The notes under the pieces are model-generated. The model worked only from the letters and a program-made list of their open reading frames with translations, was not told where the DNA came from and made no database searches. Below, in pieces: positions 5,232 through 64,000 of a stretch of DNA of 64,000 nt. The translations under genes were made by a program, and so were the position numbers. This DNA is from Echinarachnius parma (Eukaryota; Echinodermata; Echinoidea; Clypeasteroida; Echinarachniidae): positions 1-64,000 of the forward strand of contig JBAMJV010011168.1 of the NCBI GenBank assembly GCA_037951105.1, read 5' to 3'. Every line of letters begins with the position of its first letter. The first letter of the stretch is position 1.

Positions 5232-5490
5232 TCACAATTTGATTTCTGCTTCTTCGGCCTTCTGCCTACTAGGCAAGCTAGGTGGGTCCTTGATATGTAT
5301 TTCATACTCGATGTCGTCTCTGTTAGCACTGGTGTTGGCATATTCAGGAAGATTGGGTCGTAACTCGGTGTAATTCTCACCATGGTTCTCCGGGTGGCCT
5401 GGTGATTTCAGTGTCTCGGATAACATGACCGGAGACTCGTACACGTGATCGACCTCGACCGTTTTTCTCTGGCGAGTCGGAGCGGAACGT
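5232..5490 (-). CDS. Copy A exon 16: cytoplasmic tail and stop
   Basis: RSAPTRQRKTVEVDHVYESP, then NYTELRPN, EYANTS and IEYEI, ending EEAEIKL and TGA (5232-5234). Four tyrosines lie in SH2-type contexts; YAN fits the Grb2 consensus pYxN. No kinase motif (GxGxxG, HRD or DFG) is present. Seven codons shorter than B, in frame. Confidence 0.8.
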
Positions 5491-5952
5491 CTGTAAATAC
5501 AAGGACAATCAATTTCTCTCGTTAGTGATTTAAATAATATAATTAATAAGGCGTTGTTAACTCAGTCAGCAAACCTTGATTTGCCTTTCGATGTCCGGTT
5601 GTCAATACAAATTATATACACAAGGTAATTCGGGTAACTGTCGGTCGATAAAGAATGATTTCTTGTTATACATTATTTATGGGAGACATTCAACAAGATC
5701 CCGAAAATGTTTCATTATTTAATTGAAGGAAAACGAAAAAATATTATTATAAAATGTTCAATTGGCAGTCGCGTAATAAGGACCAGCATGAGGCTACATA
5801 ACTATAGTTATGAAAGGTGTATATACTTGTAATTCCAGCTTGGATGTGGCGGGGGGGGGGGGGGGGGGGGGAATGATGGCCAAGAATGAAAGGCATTTTC
5901 CACCCTTGCACCATCTTGATACGCCAATTTGTTTGAGATGATAAATACGTAC

Positions 5953-6070
5953 CTTTTGTCTCTCAGTAATATCCAAGCCAGAGCCACAGAAAGAGCGACA
6001 ATGGCAACCGCCATGATAGCTATGACAACAGTCATGATAGTTGTACTGGACGAGCTACAATGCGTGCAAT
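5953..6070 (-). CDS. Copy A exon 15: transmembrane helix
   Basis: DCTHCSSSSTTIM leads into an uninterrupted hydrophobic run (TVVIAIMAVAIVALSVALAW, then ILL) closed by the basic stop-transfer RDKR. It is 18 bases (six residues, including CTHC) longer than in B and C, in frame. Donor GTACGT. Confidence 0.85.
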
Positions 6071-6568
6071 CTGTAGGTAGAGTTGAGATGGTGATTAGAT
6101 ATTTGACCTGTCGACATTTGCCTCGACGATATCGCCACTTTATCGTCATAGTAAAAATTTAGGTTGTATTTAGGTTGAATAATAACGCCAATAATATAAT
6201 ATACTTGTAGCGCTCAAACCTAACGTTTCGAAGCATTGTCCTAGATGTATCATAATTATGTTTTAGATTGATTGGTATGAAACGCTATAGTTATGGCTAG
6301 TGTTAGGATATGGTTTCGAGCTAGACATCTTTGGTGATTTTATGAAAACGAATCAATATTGGACCAATTGTCGCCGGAGTAAATGTCATGGATCAAAAAG
6401 GTAAATATAGACAGGAATCTCAAAGAAAATATATTCAGGACAGAAATGACACGTGGGTTGTTGTTTCATCTTTTCCACATACAAATAAAACTGGCGATAC
6501 TTCGGATTCACAACGTGTCGTTAAAAGCCGTATAATAACTGTATAAGGGCTTAGAACGCGAGTCCCAC

Positions 6569-6638
6569 CTGACATGAATGTCCTGGCTATGACCGGGGCT
6601 GACCAGTAACTTGCTCCTTGACCATTCACAGTCCTCAC
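6569..6638 (-). CDS. Copy A exon 14: FN3-3, last strand
   Basis: VRTVNGQGASYWSAPVIART then FMS; the NGxGxSxWS run is the FN3 G-strand (the equivalent of the WSxWS-like ending). 70 bases in all copies. Confidence 0.8.
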
Positions 6639-7060
6639 CTGTATGGATACAACATTGAAATATAGAATAACTAATGCTGTAATGAATCTCACATACAACA
6701 AATAACCATGATGCTTGCATTTCGATTACAAGTTAACCAAATCCCCTTTTTTTCTTCAAGCACATATTTATAATAGGTGGCTGTACAAAATACATTTTCA
6801 AATGTTACGAAAAATGTAATGAAATTGTATTCTCATCTCTTTCTCATTTATTCTCAGCTATTTATAAAGGCATATTTTGGTAAATTTTAATGATACTGCT
6901 ATATCTGGAATATATCGGACAAAACCGAGCAAGGTTCGGTCGGGTCGCGAGTTACAAACTATTAAACAGGTATGCACGTAATTATAATTATGTAACTCAA
7001 TTGACATTATACAGTAAAGGTGATGACTATAATGGGACATTTTCTCTTTGCATATCTCAC

Positions 7061-7299
7061 CCTAATAATGTAATTCATCTCTGGCGCCAGGTCGTTGATG
7101 GCGTACTCTGTCTTGAGGCTTGAACCTAGCACCTCCTCCAGAGTCGCCTGAGCACCAGCACCATCAGAATCAGGTTGGTACTGTATCTCATACTTCTGGA
7201 TGTTCCCGTTAAGGTTCTCAGGCAGCGCCGCTGACCATGATACAGTCAAGGAAGTGAGCGTGCTGTATATAATCGCAATTCTGCCAGGGGGTGGGGCAG
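7061..7299 (-). CDS. Copy A exon 13: FN3-3, first part
   Basis: APPPGRIAIIYSTLTSLTVS then WSAALPENLNGNIQKYEIQY and DLAPEMNYIIR: a canonical FN3 with W, Y and LxPxxxY core residues. Donor GTGAG, acceptor TTGCAG; 239 bases in all copies. Confidence 0.85.
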
Positions 7300-7580
7300 C
7301 TGCAATAGTTTGATAGAAACATAATAATATTACATTTTGCTTCTTTATTAAATGAATGGTAGTGGCTTACCATGGATAGTAATACCCCTAGTATATACTA
7401 TCGATTGTCATATAATAATAATTTGATCACCATGACATTGTCACCTTTAATTTTACATGCATTTACAATGATATTTTATAGTATTTGACTACGGATAAAC
7501 ATAATACAAATATTGTGCCTAAATTACAAGCGTATGATCGGCCTTTAAACCTCGACTTTATGTTTTAACATCATTCTTAC

Positions 7581-7812
7581 TTTCTTCTGCTGTCTTGACA
7601 ACGATTGGGTTATTTCTAGCCCTTTCTTCATCTTTGTTCCCCGCTGTTACATAAACAGTGTAGTCCAGATATGTTTGTAGCCCAGTCAGGAGCAACGATG
7701 TACTTGTTAAATTAGTAACAATCATCGATTCAGCACTTCCATCCGAGGATGAATAGCTAATCCTGTAGAAACTCTGGCCACTCCTACACAAAAATGCAGA
7801 CTCTGGCAGAGC
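7581..7812 (-). CDS. Copy A exon 12: FN3-2, second part
   Basis: Begins ALPESAFLCRSGQSFYRISY and ends LQTYLDYTVYVTAGNKDEE then NPIVVKTAEE: strands C to G of an FN3 with the LxxYLDYTVYVTA signature. Phase 0 start, 232 bases as in B. Confidence 0.8.
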
Positions 7813-8044
7813 CTAGAAATGAAACGAGCATAAAGAGCTATTATTCGATGCATGTGATATTACGCATTATAAATTATCATATTCACTCATACATAATTTC
7901 CGTGAAATAATGCTTTCGCTGTAATGTTTATTTACTACTGCACTAAATTGATTTATAAATAATGATGAAGACAATATAATAAATGTTTCCACTTGTATTT
8001 ATTTTTACATAAATCCAGTTAAACAACATAGCAACAAGTACTTG

Positions 8045-8217
8045 AAGGGATAGTTGAGTTTTGGTAAAGAGAGTACAGTTTTGGTCAAACCGAATTTTAG
8101 TAACCAAAACCTGCACCATTACATTACAAACTAATATTTATAACTCCATCATGCTCGAAATGAATACTAAAAAAATATTTTGTCTAGCGCCCTCTATCCC
8201 AACACTTAACTATCCCT
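8045..8217. mobile_element. Short TTAA-type MITE copy
   Basis: Opens AAGGGATAGTTGAGTTTTGG and closes CTTAACTATCCCTTTAA, with GCGCCCTCTA inside: the same family as 42853-43414. Confidence 0.7.
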
Positions 8218-8301
8218 TTAAACTGACTATATTCACTCACGATGCACATCGATCATCATGTTCCCATAAGTAATGGTTTAAAAGTAAAGGGAGCGACCTA
8301 C

Positions 8302-8372
8302 CTGCCAGAAGACTTGTAGCTGCATTGGATTCACTGCTTCCACCGCGACACCAGATGGCGAGGCACTGGGCA
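8302..8372 (-). CDS. Copy A exon 11: FN3-2, first part
   Basis: 71 bases encoding PSASPSGVAVEAVNPMQLQV plus FWQ; the Trp is the FN3 core residue. Donor GTAGGT. Identical length in all copies. Confidence 0.75.
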
Positions 8373-8595
8373 CTACATTGGAAAGGAAATAAGCACATAT
8401 AATTTATACAATTCCTGTAAATATTATATTTTTTAAAGACCTATTTAAGCAACCATCAAATAAGGAATGGTTTATATTCGTATACTGAAACATATCTTTG
8501 TCTTTCTCTAACCCTCGTATCTCGGGCTTCTCCCATTATTTTCTATGTAGCAACATGTTTGATACACTTGACATGTAGTAGGTTTATTTACTTAC

Positions 8596-8904
8596 TTCCA
8601 CACAGTGTTGTAGCAATCGCTGCCGGGGATCTCGGACCAACGCCATTTGTTCCTTCCCTTGCGGCAGCCACACTAAACTCGTAGGCAGTGTCCGAGTCCA
8701 GACCACTTACGGACGCAGACGTCATACTTGCTTCAACTGTCGCTGCCTGTATCCAGTGTTCACCCCCTAACCTATTGACGTATGCTGTGTATCTTATGAT
8801 CGGGGGATCCCCCACGTCATCGACCGTCCAGCCTGACCACTGGAGGATAGCTGAAGAGGATGTCACGCTGGACACACTTGGTGGATCATCAAGTACAGGC
8901 AGCA
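8596..8904 (-). CDS. Copy A exon 10: FN3-1
   Basis: A whole FN3 domain: LDDPPSVSSVTSSSAILQWS (B-strand Trp), PPIIRYTAYV, then GLDSDTAYEFSVAAAREG and GPRSPAAIATT. Donor GTAAGT, acceptor TTTCCAG. Confidence 0.85.
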
Positions 8905-9242
8905 CTGGAAATTTGACAAATTGGAAACAAAAAATGACCAACACTTTGTAGAACGTGTTGTCTGCACCTTATGGTATGTATTATATCGAATTGACTCTGC
9001 AAAGCCCTTTTAGCGTCGACTGTAACTGTTTAAGTAATTCAGGCTGCTTCCAATGTGCACTTGCTTTGTAAGAACTAAGTACAGTAGTTTAAATCAATCA
9101 TTAATTATTTCTGCGATAAGTTAGAATACGGAAGAAAGATTATGTCTAAAAGATACCAAGATTTATATTATTAAAAACATTTTTCTTAAAATGAATATGA
9201 TATTGCTCTTTAGTACTATACATACATACCAAGCTATCTTAC

Positions 9243-9499
9243 CATAAGTCAAAGTAGTCGTTGAAAGAGATGCACTATTTTGACCAGCAGTGTAAACGCA
9301 CAGATAATCTCCAGGATATACATTGTTGACATCAAAGACGACAGCGAGCCCTCCATCCTCTTCCATACTATAATCCCTCACGATCCCATCATTTATAACA
9401 TGGGTTCCGTTGAGACGATAGAAGTTCACCATCCCTTCATTTGGCAGCGGGTTGCCAATCACGTGACAGCTGAAGGAGGCCATTGAGGCCGTGTTATAC
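9243..9499 (-). pseudogene. Copy A exon 9: Ig3, frameshifted by a 28-base deletion
   Basis: Downstream of the lesion it encodes MASFSCHVIGNPLPNEG, DGGLAVVFDVNN and YPGDYLCVYTAG: an Ig domain with both cysteines (SCHV and YLCV). B and C exons are 285 bases; A is 257. The 33 bases between ACACGG and ATGGCC in B are 5 bases here, so reading on from exon 8 gives GITRPQWPPSAVT and then a stop. Confidence 0.75.
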
Positions 9500-9863
9500 C
9501 TGAAAAGAACGTGACAAAAGACAATTTACAGAGTGTTATCAATAAGGTGATGATCTTTATACTAATTGCTAATTAAGGCCGCTTGTAACAGCCCCCTTAG
9601 GAAAATGTCCTGGTATATAGGTTGCTACCCCAAATTCTTTTTTTTTTTTTACGGATTTCACTATTCAACATAAAACGAGAAGGCAAGACTTCTCTCCACA
9701 TACATGAAGAACAGATGGTTTGCCGATAAATTCGGTATACACTATTTGTTTTGATATTAATCATTATATTTATAAAGGCTTTTGTGACGTTGCTTTTGTC
9801 TGGCAAAAACGAAAAGGAATAGAACCAAGGGAAATAAACTCGTATAAGTTTGCAGAATCCTAC

Positions 9864-9995
9864 CATACTGGCAATCTGGCTGAAACCATTGACCAAGGCA
9901 CTGTCCATTACAAATCCCGGTCACTTTGTTACATGCTTGATCCGCGCAGTGGCACTGCTCAGCGCAATCGAGTCCATAGAAACCTCCACGACATT
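9864..9995 (-). CDS. Copy A exon 8: EGF5
   Basis: CRGGFYGLDCAEQCHCADQ, CNKVTGICNGQC, then WFQPDCQYG. The FYGxxC...CHC signature again marks a laminin/Tie-type EGF. Donor GTAGG; 132 bases in all three copies. Confidence 0.8.
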
Positions 9996-10446
9996 CTGAT
10001 ATGAAAATGCAACACAGTTGTCTAATTACATGGCAAAGTTATTATGACTGCATGTGATAACACAAAACGTAAAATGTTTGTTTGTTTTACCTGTTTTCAT
10101 TAGCTTGTTTGATTGTTTTCATACTCGTGATTGAGTTGAAAATGTTGCTTAATTTTCACGGTAGCGAAGGATGCTCTGGTTTAAAAAAATACTGTAATTA
10201 TGTTCTTTGCACACATTTTCATTATTTGTATACCGCTGAAGACACACGTTAGCTCACTTGAACATTTCATTTGAAGGACATTTTTGTATAAGATATCTAA
10301 CAACAGACACACGTGCGTCCATGCAGACAATATACCGTGTACTGAACAATTCATCAATATAACTATATGTCTCATCGTGTATTTAAATGCCTAATGTTTA
10401 CCTATATACAGTATTTTAAGAAAATATAAAATGATTTCACTCCTAC

Positions 10447-10602
10447 CTTCACAGAAGACCTGTTCATCATACACAGTATACCCAGCAGCACAATCCTGTT
10501 GAGAACATTCACCGGTAGTCTTGTCACATGCAACATTGTCCAGACAATGACACTTGTCAATGCATTCACTTCCATAGTAACCAACATCACAGGTATCAGG
10601 GA
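10447..10602 (-). CDS. Copy A exon 7: EGF4
   Basis: PDTCDVGYYGSECIDKCHC, then CDKTTGECSQQDCAAGY and FCE. The YGxxC...CHC spacing is that of EGF-Lam/Tie type repeats. Donor GTAGG, acceptor TTTAG; 156 bases as in B and C. Confidence 0.8.
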
Positions 10603-10782
10603 CTAAACGAGAGAACAAATCATTTTATTAAACATAATGATAATACACTACTGTATGTTATATGGAAAATGACTAATATATATTTCAAAAGCCTATACAT
10701 ATCACTGTGTAATATAATTTGTGGCCCTTTATAGACGGGTTTGATAATTCAAAGCAATAATATTGAGTCATGTGAAACTTAC

Positions 10783-10812
10783 TTTGGCAGTTGACTCCTG
10801 ACCATCCTGTCT
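10783..10812 (-). pseudogene. Copy A stub of exon 6 (EGF3), 3' end only
   Basis: Thirty bases matching the last bases of the B EGF3 exon (41383-41412), with the GTAAGT donor still present. The other about 100 bases and the acceptor are gone, and the sequence joins directly to intron sequence equivalent to B 42169 onward. The exon is phase 1-1, so skipping it leaves the frame intact. Confidence 0.75.
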
Positions 10813-11224
10813 TCTTAGCTACAATATTAAAAATGAACTGTGATATCAACATGAAACTAATGGGTAAATTCAAACAAATCAATACAAGCTCCATTATCAA
10901 TGTAAATTAACTGAACAGATACATATGTATTTTACCATACATATCTTCACAAATGGAGAAACTTCTACCTTAGGTACGATTTGTCAGTTCTTATATATAT
11001 ACAAACAATGAGTAAACAAACTAAGAGTCATTATCATAACATTATCAAACAGAAATGGTGCACCAAAATAATCGACACGAAATTTGGTAAATTGATTTTA
11101 AATGTCACAATAATCAGATAATTAAAATTGAATCTGAATAATGCAGGTAGTCAAATAAAATGAGTAATTACAAAAGGTCATTTAACATGGCTAACAGAAA
11201 GTATGTTTTAAAGGAATTTGCTAC

Positions 11225-11386
11225 CTTGAGTGCAAGCCAAATCCTTAAATCCAGCACCGCAAGAACAGCCGTATGGGTCGGGAAGGCAGAACAGGAATCC
11301 GTCACACTTATCAACAGCATCGTCCTTGTAACTGCATTGGAATTCACAATTCAGACCAAACCGATTCCCACCGTTGTTCCTGCAAA
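11225..11386 (-). CDS. Copy A exon 5: EGF2
   Basis: VCRNNGGNRFGLNCEFQC, then CDGFLFCLPDPYGCSCGAGF and DLACTQG. The motif CxCxxGF-C marks an EGF-like module, larger than the others (54 codons). Donor GTAGC, acceptor TTTCCAG. Phase 1-1. Confidence 0.8.
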
Positions 11387-12059
11387 CTGGAAATACATGT
11401 AGGTAGGGTGACAATAAGAATTTGAACGAAATCTTCTACTTTACCAGATTAGGCATATACATTAATGTTCGTATTCGATGTAATATACATGACCACTACA
11501 GCTCCGCCTTTCCGAACTCAAAATGAGTTTCCAATTGCTCTGCGTTTAACCCTTGTCTGGAAATTCCAATTGATATGTTATAGATTTGAAATGCACCAAA
11601 ACCGATTTCTTGCCAGTTATGTGCATTGCATGAATAATCAGAAGTGAAGTATTTTTAAAACAAAACAAACGCAAGAGCTTGGCTAAATAGCTTGTTTATA
11701 CTGTTTTTAAAATATCAAGAATAACATTTAGAAATTTGGGAATTGGACTATACGTTACCTGCATTATATATAACAAATTGATCGGGCTAGTTTCTTCTGT
11801 AGCTTAATTATATATTTTGAAAATGAATCATAAGTAACAAAGACCTAGCCATGTTATTCGAAGTAAAATAAAAACATACTAGTAATAATATTAGAATGTT
11901 CCTAGGGCACAGATTGTCTGTTTCTAAAAAAAATCCTATCATGGTTTTTCGAAGAAAAATGTAAACACACATATTTTAATACATTGTCCGGATTTTACAA
12001 CAGTAAAATACCCCCTAGTACCCCATCGCATGTAATTGAACGATTTTATGAGTGCTTAC

Positions 12060-12194
12060 TGTCAAGGCAATTTGGGCCTTTGAAGTTGTTCGGGCAGATG
12101 CAGAGTCCAGACTGGTCATCACACACTCCTCCATTGTAGCACGTATCACACACCCCGACACAGTCAGGGGGTCCCCACATATTGGCTGCACATT
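12060..12194 (-). CDS. Copy A exon 4: EGF1
   Basis: ECAANMWGPPDCVGVCD, then CYNGGVCDDQSGLCICP and a C-terminal GPNCLD: a textbook EGF cysteine pattern, laminin/Tie style. Phase 1-1 exon, donor GTAAG, acceptor TTAG. Confidence 0.8.
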
Positions 12195-12305
12195 CTAACA
12201 TTTGAACAATTAAATAGCAGAGAAGGCGAAATGAAACAGATTCAATAACACATTCATCCATTATACAACAAATATGGAACAAATGTAAATCACACACTCC
12301 TTAAT

Positions 12306-12356
12306 TTAAACACACCCCGACACAGTAAGGAGGCCCCACCTGTTTGCTGTACAAAC
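12306..12356 (-). pseudogene. Relic of a duplicated EGF1 exon edge
   Basis: CACACCCCGACACAGTAAGG resembles 12148 onward in the true exon (ACACCCCGACACAGTCAGG), followed by similar intron sequence (TTCATCCATT). Its GGNCCCCACNT and GCTGNACA stretches are diverged. Confidence 0.65.
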
Positions 12357-13567
12357 TAAAATGTGAAGAAAAAAACGAAAAGCAAACAAGGCAAAATTAA
12401 ACAATGAGTAAAACACATGTTCATCCATTTTACGACAGGTCACCTGCTCTTTATTCAATGCTTGCAACGATTTATCACATAATTCACGTCACCTACCCGC
12501 TAAATCACGATAAATCTATTTTTTCTAGTACTAGACGTGACTATTTTCGAACTTTGGCCAATCATTTTCAGTTGACGCGTACAATTAATTTAAACCATGA
12601 GCGTCGACCACACATGGCCTGTATTATTATCCCTCCCAATATTTGGGATTCAGAAATATTAGAATGAAGAGAAATTGCCCTCTCATTCATTTGTGAAAAC
12701 CGGCAAGGCGGGGAGGAGAATTACGAATGGTAGCGATATAGCGCTACGTAGAGCACGTTGAGTCGTATTAGCATGGCGTGTGTGGTGTGTGTAAAAATAC
12801 GTCCCGAATCTGGAAAGATACGTTAAAGCCAAATGACAGTACTCGAAAACGCCCCAACCACAAAAAAAAAAAATACGCCTTTTCACCAACCATGTGAAAT
12901 ATATATCATAACTTATCTATTAATGCAAAGATTTGGACACAAACTGCGTTGAAATTGAATACTTGAGCAATAATATGTTCGAAATTACAACTATTATCCG
13001 CTGATATAATTAGATGGGATGTTCGTGGCTGCTAAATGCAGCCACGTGCGCTCCGGATACGAATGAACGTATAGCTACGCAGTTACGCCGGCCCAACTGG
13101 TAGTAGATTTAAGCCCAATGTCAGCGGCATTAATCCACATTTCAACTGATATTTCTTTATTTAACGATACTAAGGTAAAATTTTCCACACAAGCCGTTTG
13201 TTGTACTATTTCAACAATACTAATCAATTAGTTTGGCCTTTAAAGAATATCTTCCGTAATTTTCCCAAAACGAACATTTGGCTTTAACCCAAAACACTCC
13301 CAGTCCCACATTAATTGGAGGCCACTGCTACCGTGCTTTTGGGGGATTCGAAAGGAATGTATTGAAAGGCAGATATCCCACGCCTGCAGATTAGGGGGCG
13401 CACATAAAATAGGGTCACTTATATGTATACAATGCCACCGCCGACAACACAATGGGAATGGTCAAGTACTATATTGTGCGTGCATGCTGAGCAATGCCAT
13501 CCAAGCATAAGCTGCATCGCAAGAGCTTGGCATGCTAGGAATTTAACGTTTACACTAAGTGTTTTTA

Positions 13568-13916
13568 AAAGGTACACTTGAGTATTGGTTCTTCCCAAAA
13601 TGCCCCTTTTATATTTTATTTATAAGTCTACCGTGCAGGGGGAAATCTTGACTTTTTAGTAAAAGACACAAAATGCTTATAGACTTCTTTAAACAATCAA
13701 AATAGGTTTTAAAACAATTGTTGATGATATCTCTATTTAATCATTATTTAAACAAAAACATCGTAACTGCTTTTTTTTAATGATAACAGGTTTTTTAAGT
13801 CGTGTGCAATTGTGTATACTTTTCGAACATGGTGGAGTTATAACTATTTGTTTGTACCGCAATGGTGCGGGTTTTGGTTACTAAAATTAAGTTTGACCAA
13901 AACTCAACTATCCCTT
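13568..13916. mobile_element. TTAA-type MITE copy, decayed left end
   Basis: The right end is AAACTCAACTATCCCTTTAA and the interior shares TGATGATATCTCTATTTAATC with 42580 onward. The left end is not clear. Confidence 0.5.
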
Positions 13917-14912
13917 TAAGATAAACAAAAATATTAATCCATTCAGGGGTGTATTCTGAATAAGGTTTTAAGTTAAAATTTATTGTATGTACGTCATATT
14001 TACGTCATTAAAATATATTTTAGCAAATCGCTTTTTATTAATACAGTTAAATTTGTTGGTGACGTAGGTATGACGTAGATACAATAGAGTTTAACTTTAA
14101 CAATCGTTTTCGTTTTCTATTGTATCAAAATGACTACTAAAAATATCGTAAAAGTATATTTAACTGCCCAGCTCGAAACACACGCAAAGTAGGCAGAAAT
14201 TACGTTTGGTTGTTCATGCTGTTTGATATGGTTTGAAAGGGTAGAACCTAAGCTTTGAAATGATATATTACTTGTTAGAATTAATATAGAGGAACAAGAT
14301 ATTTACGCAGAATACAAGGAAACTGGGTTGAACGGTAAGGACCATTCATGCATGGGGAATGTGTTACATATTCACTGAATTAGTGAAATGATGCAACAAG
14401 GCACAAATTATCATGTCTCATAAATAAAGTTACCAAAGGAAAGCTGGGGGCACGTAATGAAGTCAAACTTCCCAGAAGAACTAAAGTCTGTCCACCAAAA
14501 GTGACCTAGACAAACTGGTAAATCACATTTTCTACTTCATTTTCAGTCTCCAAATTGTAACCATGTATAAACCAAGAATACGATTGAGAATGTTCAACCC
14601 ACTCACATATTTTGGCAAATTTCAGAGAATCCTGATTTCCGACTTTTTTGCGGGTTTTGAACTGGGTGGTCACATAATAGAATATAATTTTTTAACAGTG
14701 ATGATTGCAACGCATATTTTTCTGAATATCTATCACAACTAGGAATTTGATAGCTAAAGTTGATCGATGAAACGTTAACAATGCGGTCAAATCTTCATTT
14801 AAAGACTACACAATAAAACAAGAACAAATAAATTATAATCTTAATTACAAGAAGCAGGTTTATTCAGACTTTAAACAAATTTGTTTTGTAAGAAGCTGAT
14901 GTTTGGTCTTAC

Positions 14913-15185
14913 CTCTGACCATGAGCCTATACAGGGCGCCACGTGCAGACGTCCTCTCCGTGTTAAAGTGGATCTCGTATATCCCCTCATCTGAAGCCTC
15001 GACTGGGTCAGAAACTGGATAAGATAATAGTCCACGATTCACCCTTTGGCTACCTCCATCCCTTCTCCAGCTAATTTCATTGCTTTGGTCATCGGGTTGT
15101 TCTACTTGTGTCATGTCAATGGATACACCAGTATCACCAACATTCACTGTTCTAGTAAAGACTCCATCACTTGGCACAAACTTGG
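14913..15185 (-). CDS. Copy A exon 3: second Ig-like domain (Ig2)
   Basis: Encodes AKFVPSDGVFTRTVNVG, then ISWRRDGG (C-strand Trp) and ASDEGIYEIHF (D-x-G-x-Y motif of an Ig F strand, here without the usual Cys), ending LYRLMVRG. Identical in length (273) to B. The acceptor choice is fixed by phase 1 from exon 2. Confidence 0.75.
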
Positions 15186-15434
15186 CTGTAGTTTATAATA
15201 ATTAAGCAAATAATAAGGTAACACGTTCACTTTACATACATTAATAATATGTGAAAAGTATGATAACAAACATACACACAAATATATACAAAACACATTT
15301 ATTCTACTACTATGTTTTTGCAAAAATTAATTATTAATGACATTTAATAATACAATCAAATTTGATTCCGAACATGTATACAAGATTTGTTTCCTTGTAC
15401 ATTATACATGCAAACAAACCTAGAAAGCAAAGAA

Positions 15435-15757
15435 GTGTGGGGCCCATCTGGGTTTTATTTGGTTAGAACTGGGCTGGTACATGGGCCCCATCGGGGCACC
15501 CAGGGGCCCAATTACAGACCAGCGATATTTATCATAGTAATAAGCATCACTGGTTCTAACTCTTCGATGTTAATATGCTAGAATAACATCTATCGTAGCA
15601 GAGCACACATTCCACCCTTACTCGTGCAAACGTAAAGGATTACACACGCATATCTAGAGATCAGTGGAACTAGAGCTGGTCCTGGTTCACGATCGTGCTC
15701 TCGGCCACTATAACCATAGGTGTCAATATGGGGCCCACTTGGCCCAGGTGGGACCCA
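15435..15757. repeat. GGGCCCA-rich repeat fragment
   Basis: Dense in GGGCCC, CCCATCTGGGTTTTATTTGG and similar. Related blocks lie at 19377-19490, 19905-19960, 20308-20440, 21556-21780 and 22640-22880, so an ancestral element was broken up by later insertions. Confidence 0.6.
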
Positions 15758-15770
15758 CCCAGGTAGCAAG

Positions 15771-16262
15771 CCAACGTTGGTCCAACGTTGGACCAACGTT
15801 GTCCAATTTTTTCGGCAACGTTGGTCCAACGTTGTCCGGCAACGTTGGACCAACGTTGCTTGCGTACGCCCAAACAACGCTGCTCCAACGTTGGCGAAAA
15901 CAAAATACCAACGTTGGATCAACGTTGGTCCATCGTTGGAAAGTTGTCATTTGTCAACGTTGGACCAACGCTTTTCCAACGTTGATCCAAGGTTGGTATT
16001 TTGTATTCGCCAACGTTGGAGCAGCGTTGGTTGGGCGTACGCAAACGTTGATCCAACGTCAAAGCAACATGTGTCCAACAAGCATCCACCATATTTCCAA
16101 CAAGCATCCAACATGTCTCCAACACTCATCCAACAAGCATCCAACATGTCTCCAACAAGCATCCAACATGTCTCCAACAAGCATCCAACGTTGGTCCAAC
16201 GTTGGTCCAACGTTGATCCAACGTTGGTCCAACGTTGGTCCAACATTGGACCAACGTCTCAC
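15771..16262. repeat. CCAACGTTGG palindrome cluster
   Basis: More than 20 copies of CAACGTTGG-type words. Two blocks with GCGTACGCCCAA and CGCTGCTCCAACGTTGGCG are inverted about a centre near 15953. The right half adds 21-22 base CATCCAACATGTCTCCAACA repeats. Confidence 0.9.
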
Positions 16263-17001
16263 CGTACTAAAAAAATTAAATTAATATTCATATGACACGC
16301 CTATTGGTGATATCTAGAACATCCTATCCTAGCTTTCCCTTTACCTAAGACTAACCCTAACCCTATTCCTAGTCCTATTCCTATCCATATAGTCCTATTC
16401 CTATTCCTACACTCACTACATCTACATCATCCACTCAGCTTTATATAACCTAGCTTCTGTGTTAATATTTGTTTGATGGTTGGTATTTCGATAAAGTTGA
16501 ATGTTTGGATAAAGTTTTAAGAATTTACACAAATACATCATGGAAACAAACCTTTAGAATGTTTTTGTAGATAAATAACTTACATATATTTCAAATAATG
16601 AGTAAATAATAACATTGGATTCATTCTGAACAATCAAATAACATGATTATTAATGCTTTTTGCAGTCAATGATAACCACTCATGAATATTCATGAATAAT
16701 AACCAACGTTCATCCAACGTTGAACCAACGTTGATCCAATGATGGCATACATCCTGCTTTCAGCAGCTAATTTTAAATCCTTTTATTATGCAAGGGGGTT
16801 TTGACCACCTGTGCTACGAGTAAAAAAATTACCTTTTCTAACATAACAGCTACATGTAGTGAACAACAGATGTGAAATGTTGGATTCTCGTTGGATTAAC
16901 GAACGTTTCACTGTGGGTTACCGATGTCGATCCAACGTTGCTCTAACGAGATTGTCCAACCTCCATTTCACTTTGAGTTACCGATGTTGATCCATCGTTG
17001 G

Positions 17002-18026
17002 TGTTGTAATATAATACAAGTAGGCGAAATGCCATGTGTAACTCTGGCATAACAAAAATAAATACTGGTAAATTACAAACTTGAGTGTCAGGGTAGACTA
17101 CCCGACACCCAGAAGATGGAACCAGGGGATTATTCTGCCCCTTTCGTACGGTTGTCATCCCCTATGTAAGACCGACATTTACCTAAATGCAAAATGGTTT
17201 AACGTGCTAGTGCCAGGGTGGACTACCCAACGCCTAGATGATACCAAGGGATTATTCTGCCCTAAATGGTATTCATCTCTATCACAAATCTAATCTATCC
17301 GGGGGTCTGAGAGTAGACGTCGAAGTGGGTAGCGCCTGTCACGTTCTTGCGAGGGCGGCTTCACCTCACTCCAGCACGCTTCTGGGACCTCCGTTTCCTC
17401 GTTTACTGGAACATGGATGTTACCTTCAGGTGCGCGACGCTTCTTTAGATGATGTCTGTTCCGGCGATACCGCCCACCTTTCTCACTCTGGATGTGGTAC
17501 GAGCGGGGCGTTGAATCTTGAGTTGTCACTACGCCAGGTTTCCATTCTTTTCCCACTTGGTAGTACACACGTTCTCCAGACTTCAACACCGGCAGCGACT
17601 TGGCACCCTGGTCATAGTATCGCTTGTGCCTCTTCTGGAGCTCTTTCTTCCTACTAGCTATGCACAGTTGATAACAAACAGTACAGTTCTCAATAAAGCG
17701 TTTTCTGGATGGTATATCCGGTCACACATCAACCGTGAAGCTCGCCTCCCAAAATGGATTCAAATTAGCATTTCTACAACACAGGTCATGGCGAATCGAA
17801 TCAGACATACAGTCACTTTCACTTCAGACACCATGTTGTAATATAATACAAATAGGCACACGAGTATAGTTGAAAGCTTACTTTATTAACTGCTTGTAGA
17901 TCGATGGCCCAACTCATACATGGTCTCTTGACACCCGATAATATACATATCGATCCTATATGGTAATTCACCGGGGATGGCGCACTTCTATTTATGATTG
18001 TAATTCTACTTGAGTCCACTCATTAC
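17002..18026 (-). mobile_element. Gypsy-type LTR retrotransposon remnant
   Basis: The minus strand carries a 99-codon fragment (17290-17589) with WKPGVV, PRSYHI and GGRYRRNRHHLKK, the C-terminal end of Ty3/gypsy integrase. LTR ends CTTGTATTATATTACAACA (17002) and TTGTATTATATTACAACA (17834) match; the second is followed by TGGTGTCTGAAG, placed like a primer-binding site. Most of gag-pol is missing. It is inserted into the 60-bp repeat. Confidence 0.65.
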
Positions 18027-20449: not shown

Positions 20450-20799
20450 CTATATTGCTGTACACACGCGCGACCAAAAAACGCGTAAAAAGGGTACTTT
20501 CTGCCGATCATGGCGCGTCACGCGCGTGACGCGTTTAGGGTGTCAAAAAGGCCAAAATCAGAAAAAAGGGTATTTTTGTCGAGTTAAACGAATACGCGTT
20601 TAGGGTATCTTTTTCTCTAAACTTGTTTCTTTGAGAGCAATTGACGTAGACCTTATTAGGGGTTATACTTGTTTAGGGGGCAAAATTGTCAAAAAAAGCA
20701 CGCGAAAATACTTGAATAGGGTATAAATTTGACCAATGGATAAAACTTGTTTAGGGTGGGTTTGAAAAACCTGTGGTCGCGCGTGTGTACAGCAATATA
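20450..20799. mobile_element. MITE, TIR TATTGCTGTACACACGCGCG
   Basis: The inverted copy GCGCGTGTGTACAGCAATA sits at the right end. The interior repeats GTTTAGGGT and AAAAAGGGTA. Directly abuts the next MITE, so the two are nested or adjacent insertions. Confidence 0.75.
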
Positions 20800-20801
20800 T
20801 A

Positions 20802-23062: not shown

Positions 23063-23105
23063 ATGGAAGAAGAAGAAGTAGAAGAAGAAGAAGGAACGTG
23101 GAAGG
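23063..23105. repeat. (GAA)n-like microsatellite
   Basis: Imperfect GAAGAAGAA tract with GTA interruptions. Confidence 0.85.
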
Positions 23106-23950: not shown

Positions 23951-24020
23951 ACTCTATTAATGTAGATAGTTTTTAAAAGTTGGAGTGCATTTCATGAATT
24001 GACCCGTCTAGAAATATTAC

Positions 24021-54766: not shown

Positions 54767-54769
<3 letters not shown>

Positions 54770-54815
<46 letters not shown>

Positions 54816-54983: not shown

Positions 54984-54989
54984 CACACG

Positions 54990-56831: not shown

Positions 56832-57111
56832 TCACAATTTGATTTCTGTCTGTTCGGCCTTCTGCCCCTCCTTCTGCCTAATAGGCAAGCTTGGTGGGTC
56901 CTTGAGAGGTATTTCATATCCGATGTCGTCTCTGTTGGCACTGGTGTTTGCATATTCAGGAGGATTGGGTCGTAACTCGGTGTAATCCTTGCCAGGGGTC
57001 TCTGGATTACCACCGCGGCCTGGTGATTGCAGTGTCGCTGATGACATGACCGGAGACTCGTACACGTGATCGACCTCGACCGTTATTCCCTGGCGAGTCG
57101 GAGAGGATAGT
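56832..57111 (-). CDS. Copy C exon 16: cytoplasmic tail and stop
   Basis: LSSPTRQGITVEVDHVYESP, KDYTELRPNPPEYANTS, DDIGYEIPLKDPPSLPIRQ, ending EQTEIKL and TGA. 280 bases as in B; all four tyrosines are kept. Confidence 0.85.
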
Positions 57112-57199
57112 CTGTAAACAAAGTACAATCAATTTGTCTTGTTCGTAATTCAAATAATGCAAATAATCGGGCGTTGTAAACTCAGTCAGCAAACCTTAA

Positions 57200-57711
57200 A
57201 GGGGTAGTACAGTTTTGGTAAGGCTGAACTTTAGTAACCAAACCTAGACAGTAACATTATAAACTAATAGTTATAACTCTATAAAGGTATACAAAATTAC
57301 AAACGACTAAGTAAAAAGCCTGTTATCATTCAAAAAGAGCCATTAAAACACAAGAGGGCACTTTCCAGAAAGGCATTGGTTTCAACCATTTTTCATACAA
57401 AATTATGCATGTGATGTTTTATTGAAATAAGGATTAAATATAGATCATCAACAACTATTTAAAAAACGCTTTTGAAATTTTTTGAAAAAGTGCAAGCATT
57501 TAAAAAATTTTTTGAAAAAATCATATTATTTTGGCCCCAAATAATTATAAGATCAGATATATTTATTGATATTTCAGCCGTTTCTGGGTCGATTTTGACC
57601 AAATAAAGTTTTAAAATTGCATGTTCTCTCAAATTCGACACTCAGTATTTCATTACCTCACAAAAAAACTGTGATGTGCAGCGCCCTTTCTACCAAAACT
57701 AAACTACCCCT
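57200..57711. mobile_element. MITE AGGGGTAGTACAGTTTTGG, TTAA target site
   Basis: Copy B keeps the empty site CCTTAAGTTGCCTGTCG (about 34946); here it reads CCTTAA, element, TTAAGTTGCCTGTCG. A direct demonstration of TTAA duplication, as for piggyBac-type elements. Confidence 0.9.
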
Positions 57712-58074
57712 TTAAGTTGCCTGTCGATGTTGGGTTGTCAATACTAATTATATACACAAGAATATCAAGTGATTGTAGGTCTATAAAGAATGATTTGTTG
57801 CTATACATTATATCCGGGAGACGTTCAATAAGATCTCGAAAAGTCATACTTTGTTTAATTGAATAAAGGAAAATATGTTATTATAAAATATTAAATTGGC
57901 AGTAGCGTAATAAGGACCAGCTAAATGGAACTCCATAACAAAGGTTATAAAAGGAGTTTATGTTATTTCAACTGGATCGGGGCATGAGGGTGGTGAGGGC
58001 CGGAAATGAGGGGCATTTTACACCCTTGCACCATCTAGCTATACGCCAATACTTTGAGTTGATACAAAACATAC

Positions 58075-58174
58075 CGTTTGACTCTTACTAATGTCCAAAC
58101 CAGAGCCGCAGAAAGAGCGACAATGACAACTGCCATGACAGCAATGACAGCAGTCATGATAGTAGTATTGCGAT
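58075..58174 (-). CDS. Copy C exon 15: transmembrane helix
   Basis: DRNTTIM, helix TAVIAVMAVVIVALSAALVW, then basic RVKR. 100 bases as in B. Confidence 0.85.
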
Positions 58175-58495
58175 CTGTAGGAAGAGTTCAGATGGAAATT
58201 AGATATTTAACATGGCAACAATTGCTTTGAGAACGTATCGCCACCTCATAGTGAAAGAAACGGTTAGGATTGTATTTAGGTAAGATAATAACAACAATAA
58301 TGTATAACATGTATATACTACCTGTACTAGCATCACCTCAACATAAAGGGTATAAAAGGTAAAAAGGGCTATAAAGTTAGGGTTAGTTTTAGGGTACGGT
58401 TTCGAGCTAGAAAGCTAGACAGGAATATCAAAGTAATTGATTCAGGACTGAAATTTCAGGTGAATATGCCAACAAAAATTAAGCTGGCACTATCT

Positions 58496-58742
58496 GAAGA
58501 GCTCATTTGCAAAAGGGGTTAGATCCACTTTTTCAACTTTGGAGTAAAGCAGGTTTCTTTGACAAACTTTGTACACATGCCTATGGGAATATGAAAATTG
58601 AACTTTCTATATTTTTATTTTGAGTGAGTAAATTGTCCTATAATTTGGATACTACATATTTACGTAGCTTATTAATGTACTTATATCGCTAACTCAATTT
58701 GTATGGAAAGTGGATCTAACCCCTTTTGCAAATGAGCTCTTC
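58496..58742. mobile_element. MITE GAAGAGCTCATTTGC
   Basis: Inverted ends GAAGAGCTCATTTGCAAAAG (about 36 bases paired). Copy B is empty here (CTGGCACTATTTGGCAATTA at about 36453). Confidence 0.85.
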
Positions 58743-58805
58743 ATTTGTCAATTACAATGTGTTATCATTAGCCTTAACGGTACGGGTTAAGAATGTGAGT
58801 CCCAC

Positions 58806-58875
58806 CTGACACGAATGTCCTCGCTATGGCCGGGGCTGACCAGTTACTTGCTCCTTCACCATTCACAGTCCTCAC
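58806..58875 (-). CDS. Copy C exon 14: FN3-3, last strand
   Basis: VRTVNGEGASNWSAPAIART then FVS, as in B. Acceptor ATCCAG, donor GTGGGA. Confidence 0.8.
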
Positions 58876-59138
58876 CTGGATATAACATTGGAATGTAGAG
58901 TAACTAATGCTGTATTGAATTTCACTTTCAACGAGTACCCGTATGTGTTGATCACTCATACATGTCATATGTCGCATGGTCACACCAAGTATTATGACGA
59001 TAACATAAACCATTAAACCAATGAAATAATACGACACACAATCAAAGCTACGCATCGATTTATTTATTTTAATATTCACCGCAAATTCCTGCTCATGTTA
59101 TGTTTAAATGAGAGATCTTATCTTTACATATAGCTCAC

Positions 59139-59377
59139 CATTATAATGTAATTCGTCTCTGGCGCCAGGCCTTCGATGGTGTACTCTACCTCGAGGCTTG
59201 AACCTAGCACCTCCTCCAGAGTCGCCTGAGCACCAGCACGATCAGAATCAAGTTGGTACTGGATCTCATACTTCTGGATGTTCCCGTTAAGGTTTTCAGG
59301 CACCGCCGCTGACCATGATACAGTCAAGGAAGTGAGCGTGCTGTATAGAATCGCAATTCTGCCAGGGGGTGGGGCAG
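59139..59377 (-). CDS. Copy C exon 13: FN3-3, first part
   Basis: YSTLTSLTVSWSAAVPENLN, KYEIQYQLDSDRAGAQ, GLAPETNYIIM. The N-terminal half reads like A (PENLNGNIQ), the C-terminal half like B (TIEGLAPET), a possible conversion breakpoint inside the exon. Confidence 0.85.
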
Positions 59378-59658
59378 CTGCAATAGTTTGATAGAAACAT
59401 AATAATATTACATTTTGCTTCTTTATTAAATGAATGCTAGTGGCTTACCATGGATAGTAATACCCCTAGTATATACTATCGATTGTCAGATAATCATAAT
59501 TTGATCACCATGACATTGTCACCTTTAATTTTACATGCATTTACAATGATATTTTATAGTATTTGACTACGGATAAACATAATACAAATATTGTGCCTAA
59601 ATTACAAGCGTATGATCGGCCTTTAAACCTCGACTTTATGTTTTAACATAATTCTTAC

Positions 59659-59892
59659 TTTCTTCCGCTGTCCTGACAACGATTGGGTTATTTCTAGCAC
59701 TTTCTTCATCTTTATTCCCCGCTGTTACATAAACAGTGTAGTCCAGATTATGTTTGCAGGCCAGTCAAGAGCAATGATTGACTTGTTAAATCAGTAACAA
59801 TCATCGATTCAGCACTTCCACCCGAGGATGAAAAGCTAATCCTGTAGAAATTCTGGCCACTCCTACACGGAAAATGAGGACTCTGGCAGAGC
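59659..59892 (-). pseudogene. Copy C exon 12: FN3-2, second part, two +1 insertions
   Basis: Recognisable pieces CRSGQNFYRISFSSS and LTSQSLLLTGLQT lie in a frame shifted from the exon start. One extra base lies near 59869-59878 (CCGTG where A has TTGTG), the other near 59749-59750 (ATTATG where A and B have ATATG). Net +2, so the remaining FN3 strands are out of frame. Confidence 0.75.
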
Positions 59893-60164
59893 CTAGAAAT
59901 GAAACGAGCATGAAGAGCTATATTGCGATGCATATGATATTACGCATTATAAATTATCATATTTACTCATACATGATTTCCGTGAAATAATGCTTTCACT
60001 ATAATGTTTATTTACTACTGCACTAAATTGATTTATAAATAATGATGAAGAAAAAGGAATACATTTGTTCTGCTTGCATTACCCTTTTACATAATCCGGT
60101 TAAACAATATACTAAACAATATACTTAGGAACATGTACTTAAACTGACTATATATAACTTTATA

Positions 60165-60430
60165 TACTACTAAAAAAAGGTTCACTTTTTTCTTAACTTG
60201 TATTTTTTCCAAGCTATGAGTGAGGTCTTACCTAATTCTTTCATTTTTTGTTTGACTACATGGTGTCCTCATTGGAATAAAAAAAAAAATGATACAAGAG
60301 ACATTATGCAACAACTGAACCACATGTGATATTGATTACAGTGTGTTTGAGGTCATTCAGGAGTAAAATATGTCATTTTATACTTTTATACACAAAATAG
60401 AAAGTGATCCTTAACTTTTTTTGAGTAGTG
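60165..60430. mobile_element. Mariner-type MITE, TA target site
   Basis: TACTACTAAAAAAAGG at the left, TTTTTTTGAGTAGTG at the right, TA flanks. Copy A has the unfilled AACTGACTATATTCACTC (about 8221). Confidence 0.8.
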
Positions 60431-60494
60431 TATATAATCACGAAACGATACACATTGATCACCATGTTCCCATAAAAGTAAAAGAAAGACCTAC

Positions 60495-60565
60495 CTGCCA
60501 GAAGACTTGTAGCTGCCTTGGATTCACTGCTTCCACCGCAACACCAGATGGTGAGGCACTGGGTA
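60495..60565 (-). CDS. Copy C exon 11: FN3-2, first part
   Basis: PSASPSGVAVEAVNPRQLQV then FWQ; acceptor CTGCAG, donor GTAGGT; 71 bases. Confidence 0.75.
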
Positions 60566-60790
60566 CTGCAGTAGAAAGAAAAATAATAACATGAACAATC
60601 ATACAATTCCTGTAAATATTTTATTATTGGAAAAGCTTTTTAAACAAAAATCAAGTAAGAAATGTGTTATGATCGTAGGTTGAAATATATCTTTTTCTTT
60701 CTCTAACCCACGCATCTCGGGCTGCTCCCATTAGTTTGTATGTAGCAACATGTTATATACACATGACATGTAGTGAGTTTATTTACTTAC

Positions 60791-61099
60791 TTCCACACAG
60801 CGTTCTAGCAATCGTTGTCGGGGATCTCGGACCAACGCCATTTGCTCCTTCCCTTGCGGCCGCCACACTGAACTCGTAGGCAGTGTCCGAGTCCAGACCA
60901 CTTACGGACGCAGACGTCATACTTGCTCCAACTGTCGCTGCCTGTATCCAGTGTTCAGCCCCATACCGAGTGACGTATGCTGTGTATTCTATGATCGGGG
61001 GATCCCCCACGTCATCGACCGTCCACCCTGACCATTGGAGGATAGCTGAAGAGGATGTCACGCTGGACACACTTGGTGGATCATCAAGTACAGGCAGCA
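60791..61099 (-). CDS. Copy C exon 10: FN3-1
   Basis: VLDDPPSVSSVTSSSAILQW, PPIIEYTAYVTRYG, AYEFSVAAAREGANG. 309 bases, as in A. Confidence 0.85.
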
Positions 61100-61430
61100 C
61101 TGGAAATGTGACACATTGGGAACAATAAATGACCAACACTTTGTAGAACGTGTTGTCTGCACCTCATGGTATGTATTATATCAAACTGACTATGTAAAGC
61201 CCTTTGAGCGTAAACTGTAAATGTTTAAGAAATACATGCTGCTTCCAATGTGCAATTGCTATGTAAGAGCTAAGTAGTTTATATCAATCATTACTTATTT
61301 CTGCGATAAGTTAGAATACGGAAGAAAGATTGTGTCTAGAAGATACAAGGTTTATATTATTAAAAAGTTTTTCTTAAAATGAATATGATATTTCTCTTTA
61401 GTACTACACATAAATACCAAGCTATCTTAC

Positions 61431-61715
61431 CATAAGTCAAAGTAGTCGTTGAAAAAGATACACAATTTTGACCAGCAGTGTAAACGCACAGATAATCTCC
61501 AGCATATAAATTGTTGACATCAAAGACGACAGCGAGCCCTCCATCCTCTTCCATACTATGATCCCTCACGATCCCATCATTTACAACCTGGGTTCTGTTG
61601 ATACGATAAAAGTTCACAGCCCCCTCATTTGGCAGCGGGTTGCCAGTGACGTGAGAGGTGAATGATACCATTGACAGAGGATTCACCTTCTCGTTGGGAG
61701 TAACCCGTGTTATTC
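61431..61715 (-). CDS. Copy C exon 9: Ig3
   Basis: Start ITRVTPNEKVNPLSMVSFT, then SHVTGNPLPNEGAVNFY and YAGDYLCVYTAGQN. The first Ig cysteine (SCHV in A, TCHV in B) is Ser here (TSHV), so the domain disulphide is lost. 285 bases. Confidence 0.8.
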
Positions 61716-61852
61716 CTGAAAAGAACGTGAAATGGAAAATTCAAAGAGTGTTATCAATACATTAATTTATAATATTCGGGAACCTGGTGTGCGACTTATT
61801 AGTTTGTTGGAAAGTAATAACAAAATCTAGAGGGGATAGAGAGGGTGTGTGT

Positions 61853-61873
61853 GGGGGGGGGGGGGGGGGGGGG
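61853..61873. repeat. Poly-G run
   Basis: About 20 G, after TGTGTGTGGGG, in the copy C intron between EGF5 and Ig3. Confidence 0.9.
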
Positions 61874-62314
61874 TAATGGATTATTGTATAGGCATGGAAC
61901 CGTGTAAACATATATTATGAATATTATGATAATAAATCAACCTAAATGTGGGGGATTTCTGTTTAAAAAAAAACCACATTGATCAAAATAAGGGTTACAT
62001 TGATTAGAAATACAATGTTTTTCATGTTGAGAATCTCACAAGAATATATAAGTTTATACAATAATTATGTAATTATAAAATTCTTGTCTAGGAGACAATG
62101 CAAGATGTAGACGTTGATTATGTTGATAACCATACTTGTTGCATGTACATTTCGTCAAACCAACACGTAATCTTTGAATAGAAATTAATTCCATGGAAAC
62201 ATTATCAATACGATTGAAAAACGTTTGGGTTATGTTTTGCGATAAGCTGATGATTAGTAGGACAATTAACGCCGATTGTATTAAACAGCTCCCTCAGTTA
62301 AATGTCTTGGTATA

Positions 62315-62784
62315 CAGGGTGTCCCCCTAAAAACGTAACGGGGCACGTCTTTTCAGTCAATTTGGTCGTGTAGTTTTTGAGTTAGGGCGTTGTGAGTGAC
62401 ACTATGTCAGGTTCCCATTTTTGTCAATTTTTACCAAGTCAGTGTCTGATAAATCGCATGTACTGCCCGTCATAGCATCCAACAACGAGCAATACACGCG
62501 CCATTGTTAGTGTGTTTGCAGCTGTGTGCCGAAGGAATGGGCATATTTGTTCTATAATATGACGGGCAGTACGCCCGATTTATCAGGCACTTGGTAAAAA
62601 TTTACAAAAATAGGAACCCGACATGGTGTCACACACATCGCTCTAAAACAAAAACTACACGTCGACAAAAAATGACTGTTCTTGGTATCGTTTTCCATTG
62701 GAAAAGACACCCTATCCGATGGATATATACATCTTGTTACTATATTTTGGGAAGTGCCCCGTTCGTTTTCTTGGGGACACGCTG
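62315..62784. mobile_element. MITE, TIR CAGGGTGTCCCCC, TA target site, second copy
   Basis: Same family as 3816-4353 (shares GGGGCAC, TTTTGTCAATTT-like and AAGTCAGTGTCTGATAAATC segments). Right end CAGCGTGTCCCC inverted, TA flanks. Confidence 0.85.
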
Positions 62785-63047
62785 TATAGGTGGCTACCCC
62801 AAAGTTAGCTTATTATAACGGATTTCACTATTAAACATAATACGAGCAGGCAATACTCTCTCCACACGCATGGTTAAAAGATGGTTTATCGATAAAATTG
62901 GTAAGCAATATTTGTTTTGCTAATAATCATTATATTCATTATAATCATTGTAACATAAAGGCTTTGTGACCGTTTTCTCTTGATTGGCAAAACCGAATTA
63001 GAACAGAACCAAAGTAAATACACACGTATAAGTTTGTAGCATCTTAC

Positions 63048-63179
63048 CATACTGACAATCTGGCTCAAGCCATTGCCCAATGCACTGTGTATTACAAATC
63101 CCAGTCACTTTGTTACATGCTTGATCCACGCAGTGGCACTGCTCAGCGCAATCGAGTCCGTAGAAACCTTCACGACATT
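63048..63179 (-). CDS. Copy C exon 8: EGF5
   Basis: CREGFYGLDCAEQCHCVDQ, CNKVTGICNTQC, PDCQYG. Exon and flanks are B-like, for example IGQWLEP. Confidence 0.8.
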
Positions 63180-63535
63180 CTGATTTGAAAAATGCAACAC
63201 AGTCTAATTACATGGCAAAGTTATAATGACTGTGTGATAAAACAAAACGTACACACGTTTGTTGCTCTGGTTTATAATATGTTGCAATTATGTTCTTTGC
63301 ACACATTTTCATTATTTGTATATTTTTAAAGACACAAGTAAGCTCACTTGAACATTCATTTGAAGGACATTTTTGTATAAGATATCTAACAACAGACACA
63401 AACGCGTCCATGCAGGCAATATACTGTGTACTGAACAATTCAGCAATATAAATTTTTTTATCATCGTGCATTTAAATGCCTAATGTTTACTTATATACAG
63501 TATCTTAAACACATATCAAATGAATTCACTCTTAC

Positions 63536-63691
63536 CTTCACAGAAGACCTGTCCATCATACACATTATACCCAGCAGCACAATCCTGTTGAGGACATTCC
63601 CCGGTATTCTTGTTACATGCAATATTGTCCACACAATGACACTTGTCAATGCATTCACTTCCATAGTAACCAGCATCACAGACATCAGGGA
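63536..63691 (-). CDS. Copy C exon 7: EGF4
   Basis: PDVCDAGYYGSECIDKCHC, CNKNTGECPQQDCAAGYNVY, FCE. 156 bases, phase 1-1; the most N-terminal exon of this copy in the window. Confidence 0.8.
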
Positions 63692-64000
63692 CTGAAATAA
63701 AAAAAAGAACACATTGTTAAAAACAACCATTACTCTCAACTTTCGCTTTGGGCAATTTGTTCATAATTCAAAACAGATGCGGCAATTTGAAGGGGAAATA
63801 CATAAGTATATTAGTTATGAATATACATAAATGGACCGTTGATCCTGCTCGAACAACATCATGTGTATTTATTGATGTATGTACAATTTTTTTAATTTTT
63901 TAATATAACATACCATTTTCCTTTTACTTGCGTATACAGATCAATGTTTTATATAATTGGCGGCTCTTTATAGATAGGTTTGATAATTAAAAGCATTATT
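63692..64000. other. Copy C intron, cut by the window end
   Basis: The last 30 bases (GGTTTGATAATTAAAAGCA) match B 41339 onward, so the EGF3 exon should begin about 25 bases beyond base 64000. Confidence 0.7.

Follow-up and report, generated by a model that had tools for sequence, protein, structure and literature searches.

The vertebrate Tie receptors, Tie1 and Tie2 (TEK), are one or two vascular receptor kinases in which two immunoglobulin-like (Ig) domains, three EGF modules, a third Ig domain and three fibronectin type III (FN3) domains are followed by a membrane helix and a tyrosine kinase, and angiopoietins bind Tie2 via their fibrinogen C-terminal domain. Vertebrate immunoreceptor tyrosine-based activation motif (ITAM) receptors are recognized by the consensus YxxL/I-x6-8-YxxL/I. 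Here, we present the analysis of a 64,000-nucleotide stretch of the echinoid Echinarachnius parma (assembly GCA_037951105.1, contig JBAMJV010011168.1, referred to as C11146; positions 1–64000, hereafter the window), which holds three colinear minus-strand genes, copies A, B and C. Copy B follows the vertebrate Tie order of Ig, Ig, EGF, Ig, three FN3 domains and membrane helix, whereas it carries five EGF modules, ends in a short tail without a kinase and has many relatives in the genome. The array would thus represent a family of receptors of Tie descent in which the tail has been exchanged.

Among echinoderms, fibrinogen-related proteins and a "tyrosine-protein kinase receptor" family are listed among five expanded and clustered families in the genome of the sea cucumber A. 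japonicus (PMC5638244). The passages on that receptor family state neither Tie nor the loss of a kinase and give it by name only, so that its identity with the kinase-less Tie family is a guess that may prove right. TIE1 is among the top genes of a coelomocyte cluster in a holothurian single-cell study (PMC11925454) and a Tie-2-like protein is reported on starfish coelomocytes (PMC13409769); these reports possibly, though not necessarily, refer to the family described here. No description of a kinase-less Tie family was found in the titles and abstract openings of the papers retrieved, from a collection that takes in a minority of subscription journals.

Tie relationship and search for a kinase

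For copy B, an exon-wise gene model gave a 998-residue protein with signal peptide, two Ig domains, five EGF modules, a third Ig domain, three FN3 domains, membrane helix and tail, its stop codon lying in the last exon. All 14 of its 14 introns have GT/AG ends, and the intron phases are 1 between ectodomain units, 0 inside FN3-2 and FN3-3, and 2 between the transmembrane and tail exons, whose splicing is predicted from the sequence. An earlier note on this DNA had proposed a Tie ectodomain coupled to a tail of about 93 residues that ends within one exon, in a protein of 995 residues; the tail exon indeed encodes 92 residues followed by a stop, and the total length is slightly revised.

The proposed Tie ectodomain was supported by comparison with solved structures, in which residues 1–564 of copy B matched three human Tie2 entries best (expectation value, E, 4e-38, over residues 115–373), the best non-Tie structure having an E of 6.4e-6. 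The EGF2 module of copy B contains FCLPDPYGCSC, as in Tie2. The domain order Ig-Ig-EGF-Ig-FN3x3 was found in copy B, with the three FN3 stretches recovered by a domain search of the whole protein and the Ig domains read from weak matches together with the Tie2 alignment. On this evidence, the Tie relationship of the Ig2-EGF region is firm.

The assembly searched (1.2 Gb, 14,790 contigs) contains on contig C710 a gene which looks like the true Tie of this genome, with EGF1, EGF2 with FCLPDPYGCSC, two more EGF exons, FN3 units, a transmembrane exon, kinase exons (identity to human Tie2 up to 95.8%, in a stretch of 24 residues) and YVNV at the C-terminus. Over EGF1-2, identity is 55.1% of 89 residues between copy B and C710, 46.2% of 91 between copy B and human Tie2, and 53.9% of 89 between C710 and human Tie2. 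The EGF and FN3 modules and the transmembrane exon found on C710 are shared with the array genes, whereas the latter have, in place of the kinase exons and YVNV, a short tail to which C710 shows no significant match. Derivation of this tail from the C-terminus of the Tie kinase was considered and rejected, as short-tail queries gave no match with E below 2 to C710. Five EGF modules, described as unusual in the earlier note, do set copy B apart from vertebrate Tie, whereas the contrast within the genome is smaller, since four or more EGF exons were found in the kinase-bearing Tie on C710.

Searched with the human Tie2 kinase and with pieces of the C710 kinase, the window yielded no kinase exon at E 0.01, and no kinase match was obtained at the same threshold from the stretches that carry two further family members on C4622 (253767–272500, reaching down as far as the tail, with a gap of 352 bases) and C2935 (3501–23500); the C710 stretch gave 15 matches with the same queries, self-matches included. 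According to the earlier note, transcripts that splice past the tail exon into kinase exons would speak against its proposal; as far as the DNA bears on this, the window showed no kinase exon, and 32 of the 34 tail matches found genome-wide are free of internal stops. The kinase-bearing paralogue that the earlier note advised looking for beside the locus lies on another contig, C710, and none stands next door within the part of C11146 that was read. In hand-compiled lists, the 68 contigs listed for EGF matches and the 103 listed for kinase matches have no contig in common, a weak comparison because it covers only the matches listed and the EGF exons of C710 itself are not among them. Because a kinase was tested for and not found, the array genes are, judged by their sequences, not Tie kinases in the strict sense.

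Family size, variability and the cytoplasmic tail

The expansion seen within the window turned out to be larger in scale. The copy B protein gave at least 51 matches (best 46 of 1440 candidates scored), many of them on other contigs, the tail gave 34 matches on 21 contigs (37 of 37 candidates scored), and EGF1 with EGF2 gave at least 150 matches on 68 contigs at 49–98% identity (best 150 of 389 candidates), EGF2 being covered in about 72 of the 150 listed by hand count. Kinase matches in equal-score pairs and near-identical Ig1 copies on C825 point to both haplotypes in the assembly; haplotype duplicates are probably present and therefore genes per haploid genome would be fewer than loci.

The copy on C4622 matched all exon types, including five EGF modules, with Ig1 from residue 54 and no stops inside the exon parts, as judged by exon matches; five EGF modules therefore occur in more than a single copy. 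On C2935, a divergent member keeps the order from EGF1 to FN3-3 at 31–68% identity per match and, as judged by eye, continues into a membrane helix, a phase-2 intron and a different tail with YQDL, YQNV, YDYP and a stop. On C825, near-identical Ig1 copies at 20621 and 145862, with identical tail proteins at 28050 and 153883, lie 125 kb apart and may represent a recent large duplication or joined haplotypes. At locus L029 on the same contig (C825:55630–57414), the stretch from the Ig3 exon to the transmembrane and tail exons yielded no FN3 exon match. A processed retrocopy on C825, considered from one long open frame in the match table, was rejected because ordinary exons with stops between them are present.

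Variability of Ig1 was assessed in 17 sequences, namely 16 loci (one of which, L009, is copy B) and copy A, copy C being left out for its frame break; one comparison omitted L009 as well as L015, whose protein is identical to that of L014 over the part compared. The tree-based ratio of nonsynonymous to synonymous substitution rates (dN/dS) was 0.42 overall, with two segments at about 1.1–1.3 and windows of the alignment that do not overlap these segments at 0.09–0.47. The segments differ from the rest of Ig1 at a Fisher probability of 1e-10, having been picked after looking. Diversifying selection on these segments is possible and relaxed constraint equally so, because the excess over 1 is nonsignificant, the choice of segments was post hoc and the clustering of changes reaches only p 0.02. 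The AlphaFold model of Ig1, at a mean predicted local distance difference test (pLDDT) score of 34.7, is too low in confidence to place the segments in space.

For the tail, 33 sequences were aligned, comprising those of the three window copies, that of L029 and 29 others that were retrieved. The four tyrosines of the tail are kept in 33, 33, 30 and 32 of the 33, respectively, and the corresponding motifs are, in order, YxxP (31/33), YxxL (33/33, one being YxxV), YxN (28/33) and YxxP (24/33). Even tails at about 50% identity (L083, L084) keep all four tyrosines, and length differences preserve the frame in 32 of 33; the L078 tail is frame-broken and was left out of the dN/dS estimates, and the L070 tail stops early. 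Pairwise dN/dS was 0.43 among 21 close tails and 0.51 among 32 tails, and counts on a tree gave 0.59 for the 32. By these measures the tail is moderately constrained. Overall dN/dS among copies A, B and C was 0.46–0.60.

YxN corresponds to the Grb2-type SH2 consensus. The ITAM pattern fits 9 of the 33 tails, all nine among the more divergent ones, and it arises in 0.1–0.3% of shuffled tails (four tails tested). Five of the nine lie on contigs (C1575, C9978, C5427, C1193 and C1513) with EGF1/EGF2 matches upstream on the same strand, 10–24 kb away, from which we infer that each of these tails and the EGF modules belong to one gene. One divergent ITAM-pattern tail (L074, C11146:80893–81264) is found on the contig of the window, 17 kb beyond its end. 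The pattern is shared with vertebrate ITAM receptors, whereas here it would sit in the same chain as a Tie ectodomain, and the window copies are without it. Phosphorylated YxxP is described as a site for the Crk SH2 domain (PMC2689226). The constraint on the tail and its retained SH2-type motifs, some of them ITAM-like, speak for signalling and against a pure decoy.

Layout of the array and other features of the window

The coordinates of the array genes are collected in Table 1. Exons of copies A and C are 76–99% identical to those of copy B over the aligned parts, the tail of copy B and copy A are about 10 kb apart, and the 5' part of copy C (an EGF3 remnant and everything upstream) extends beyond the window up to C11146:67119. 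The array of three genes proposed earlier holds in so far as the three are colinear on the minus strand; only copy B is intact, copies A and C being frame-broken with reduced EGF sets. In copy A, the EGF3 exon is reduced to a 3' remnant, and the codon aligned with the start of copy B is not ATG, an in-frame ATG following further on (by eye). In copy C, EGF3 is likewise a remnant, the EGF2 exon was not found at E 1e-3, and the signal/Ig1 exon, outside the window, has a frame break. The frame breaks of A and C, above all the 1-nt changes, may be assembly errors.

Table 1 Features of the array genes, with positions numbered along the window
Feature	Position	Strand	Remarks
Copy A	5232..24417	-	same exon types as B; Ig3 frame broken, EGF3 exon a remnant
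Copy B	48554 to 34584	-	intact, 15 exons
Copy C, 3' part	56832..64000	-	from EGF4 to the tail; FN2b with two 1-nt insertions
B exon 1, signal peptide and Ig1	48137..48554	-	ATG, phase-1 donor; Ig_Tie2_1 E 0.029, below cut-off
B exon 2, Ig2	47073..47345	-	within stretch aligned to Tie2
B exon 3, EGF1	45063..45197	-	EGF_2 E 3.4e-4, narrowly missing the cut-off
B exon 4, EGF2 with FCLPDPYGCSC	43649..43810	-	gene model; Tie2 structure match
B exon 5, EGF3	41383..41514	-	gene model; A and C hold remnant only
B exon 6, EGF4	41044..41199	-	gene model
B exon 7, EGF5	40470..40601	-	gene model
B exon 8, Ig3	39844..40128	-	Ig_2 E 0.015, below cut-off
B exon 9, FN3-1	38662..38973	-	fn3 E 8.3e-8
B exons 10-11, FN3-2	37815..38441 (38441-38371, 38046-37815)	-	fn3 match
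B exons 12-13, FN3-3	36519..37088 (37088-36850, 36588-36519)	-	fn3 E 2.5e-10
B exon 14, transmembrane helix	36027..36126	-	phase-2 donor; helix identified visually
B exon 15, cytoplasmic tail (YESP, YTEL, YTNT, YEIP) and stop	34584..34863	-	

A partial second EGF1-like piece (12310–12353, minus strand, 82% over 45 columns) adjoins the EGF1 exon of copy A, and a 290-bp tandem duplication, 96% identical, occupies 43959–44538 within an intron of copy B. Elsewhere, the window contains a minisatellite of 60-bp units with 22 registered start points (17908–19467), a 213-bp repeat in two pairs about 12.8 kb apart (21059–21485 and 33862–34288; 90–97% identical), an open frame (17290–17721, minus strand) which on visual inspection resembles the C-terminus of a Ty3/gypsy-type polyprotein, and a borderline transfer RNA-like Rfam match (33124–33179, minus strand, 29.6 bits against a threshold of 29), perhaps a short interspersed element.

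Possible role and alternative explanations

We lean slightly towards a Tie-derived family of recognition receptors which lack a kinase and signal through the docking of SH2 proteins. Its members would be single-pass receptors of Tie descent which kept the Tie ectodomain with five EGF modules and had the kinase replaced by one short tail exon. Ligand binding or clustering would lead a separate tyrosine kinase, either Src-type or the true Tie, to phosphorylate the tail, upon which YxxP could recruit Crk-type adaptors and YxN Grb2-type adaptors, and the paired YxxL/I of the ITAM-bearing relatives could engage Syk-type kinases. Because the family is large and partly tandem, its tail is constrained and two Ig1 segments are variable, the most likely role would be that motile or immune cells use these receptors to recognize a range of ligands, among which fibrinogen-domain proteins are possible.

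Fibrinogen C-terminal domains gave at least 155 matches in the genome (best 150 of 282 candidates scored). Many such matches stand in a row on contigs C3185, C1269, C2856, C10310, C13113 and C3468. That fibrinogen-domain proteins and kinase-less Tie receptors co-expanded as a ligand-receptor system with ITAM-type or SH2-docking tails, an immune family fashioned from a vascular growth factor receptor and independent of the vertebrate immunoglobulin receptors, is a tentative and rather doubtful extension.

Several observations weigh against a recognition family that signals through its tail. The connection to the sea cucumber family is drawn from the names given in published studies. Two of the three copies in the window are broken, copy A by a 28-nt frame-breaking deletion in the Ig3 exon (28 gap columns in the alignment) and copy C by two 1-nt insertions in FN2b. 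The ITAM pattern is absent from copies A, B and C, in which YTEL is followed by YTNT or YANT, and among the matches listed, the other four of the nine ITAM tails, L074 included, have no upstream EGF match. A few comparisons gave high dN/dS on few changes, namely the B-C tail (2.3), EGF4 in all three pairs of A, B and C (1.2–2.65) and FN3-3 between A and C (about 1.4). In Ig1, the dN/dS excess of the two segments over 1, and with it positive selection, was not significant (binomial p 0.15). The evidence for a Tie-type Ig1 is also weak: of 16 members, 8 matched the Ig_Tie2_1 model with an E no higher than 1, the best value of 0.0046 still missing the curated cut-off, the model is absent from the domain matches of the whole copy B protein, and the Ig1 profile retrieved no Tie structure among solved structures.

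Vertebrate Tie1 acts on Tie2 as a co-receptor. By analogy, the kinase-less proteins could serve the angiopoietin-Tie system of this animal as decoys or co-receptors whose ectodomain binds Tie ligands or the Tie kinase and so tunes signalling by the system, a reading which the Tie ectodomain, the presence of a kinase-bearing Tie gene elsewhere in the genome and the lack of a detected kinase in the window would all allow. A pure decoy needs no tyrosine tail, yet the first two tyrosines are kept in 33 of 33 tails, and dozens of loci seem beyond what the tuning of one receptor would call for; we consider this explanation unlikely.

A shade less likely still is a duplication burst in which most copies are decaying, few are functional and no special recognition role exists. 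Copy B is intact and the C4622 copy has no stop in the exon parts read, whereas copies A and C, two copies on C8185 with frame breaks, the early stop in the L070 tail and the C825 stretch without an FN3 match between Ig3 and the transmembrane exon are what such decay would produce, and the probable presence of both haplotypes inflates the counts. The dN/dS of 0.46–0.60 among A, B and C, the frame kept across tail length differences and the four tyrosines retained in tails as divergent as L083 and L084 speak against decay. That these are ordinary Tie receptor tyrosine kinase genes with kinase exons missed or lying past a long intron is very improbable, and nearly excluded for copies A and B: the family resemblance of the ectodomain fits it, whereas the roughly 10 kb from the copy B tail to copy A, like the rest of the window, holds no kinase exon, a tail exon with a stop recurs in dozens of loci, and the listed EGF and kinase contigs, weakly comparable as they are, do not overlap.

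If the recognition family is real, a growth factor receptor would have been turned into a family of recognition receptors in this echinoid, existing beside a kinase-bearing Tie and many fibrinogen-domain genes. Some of the proteins annotated as "Tie-1" or as a "tyrosine-protein kinase receptor" in animal genome and single-cell data sets may then lack a kinase.

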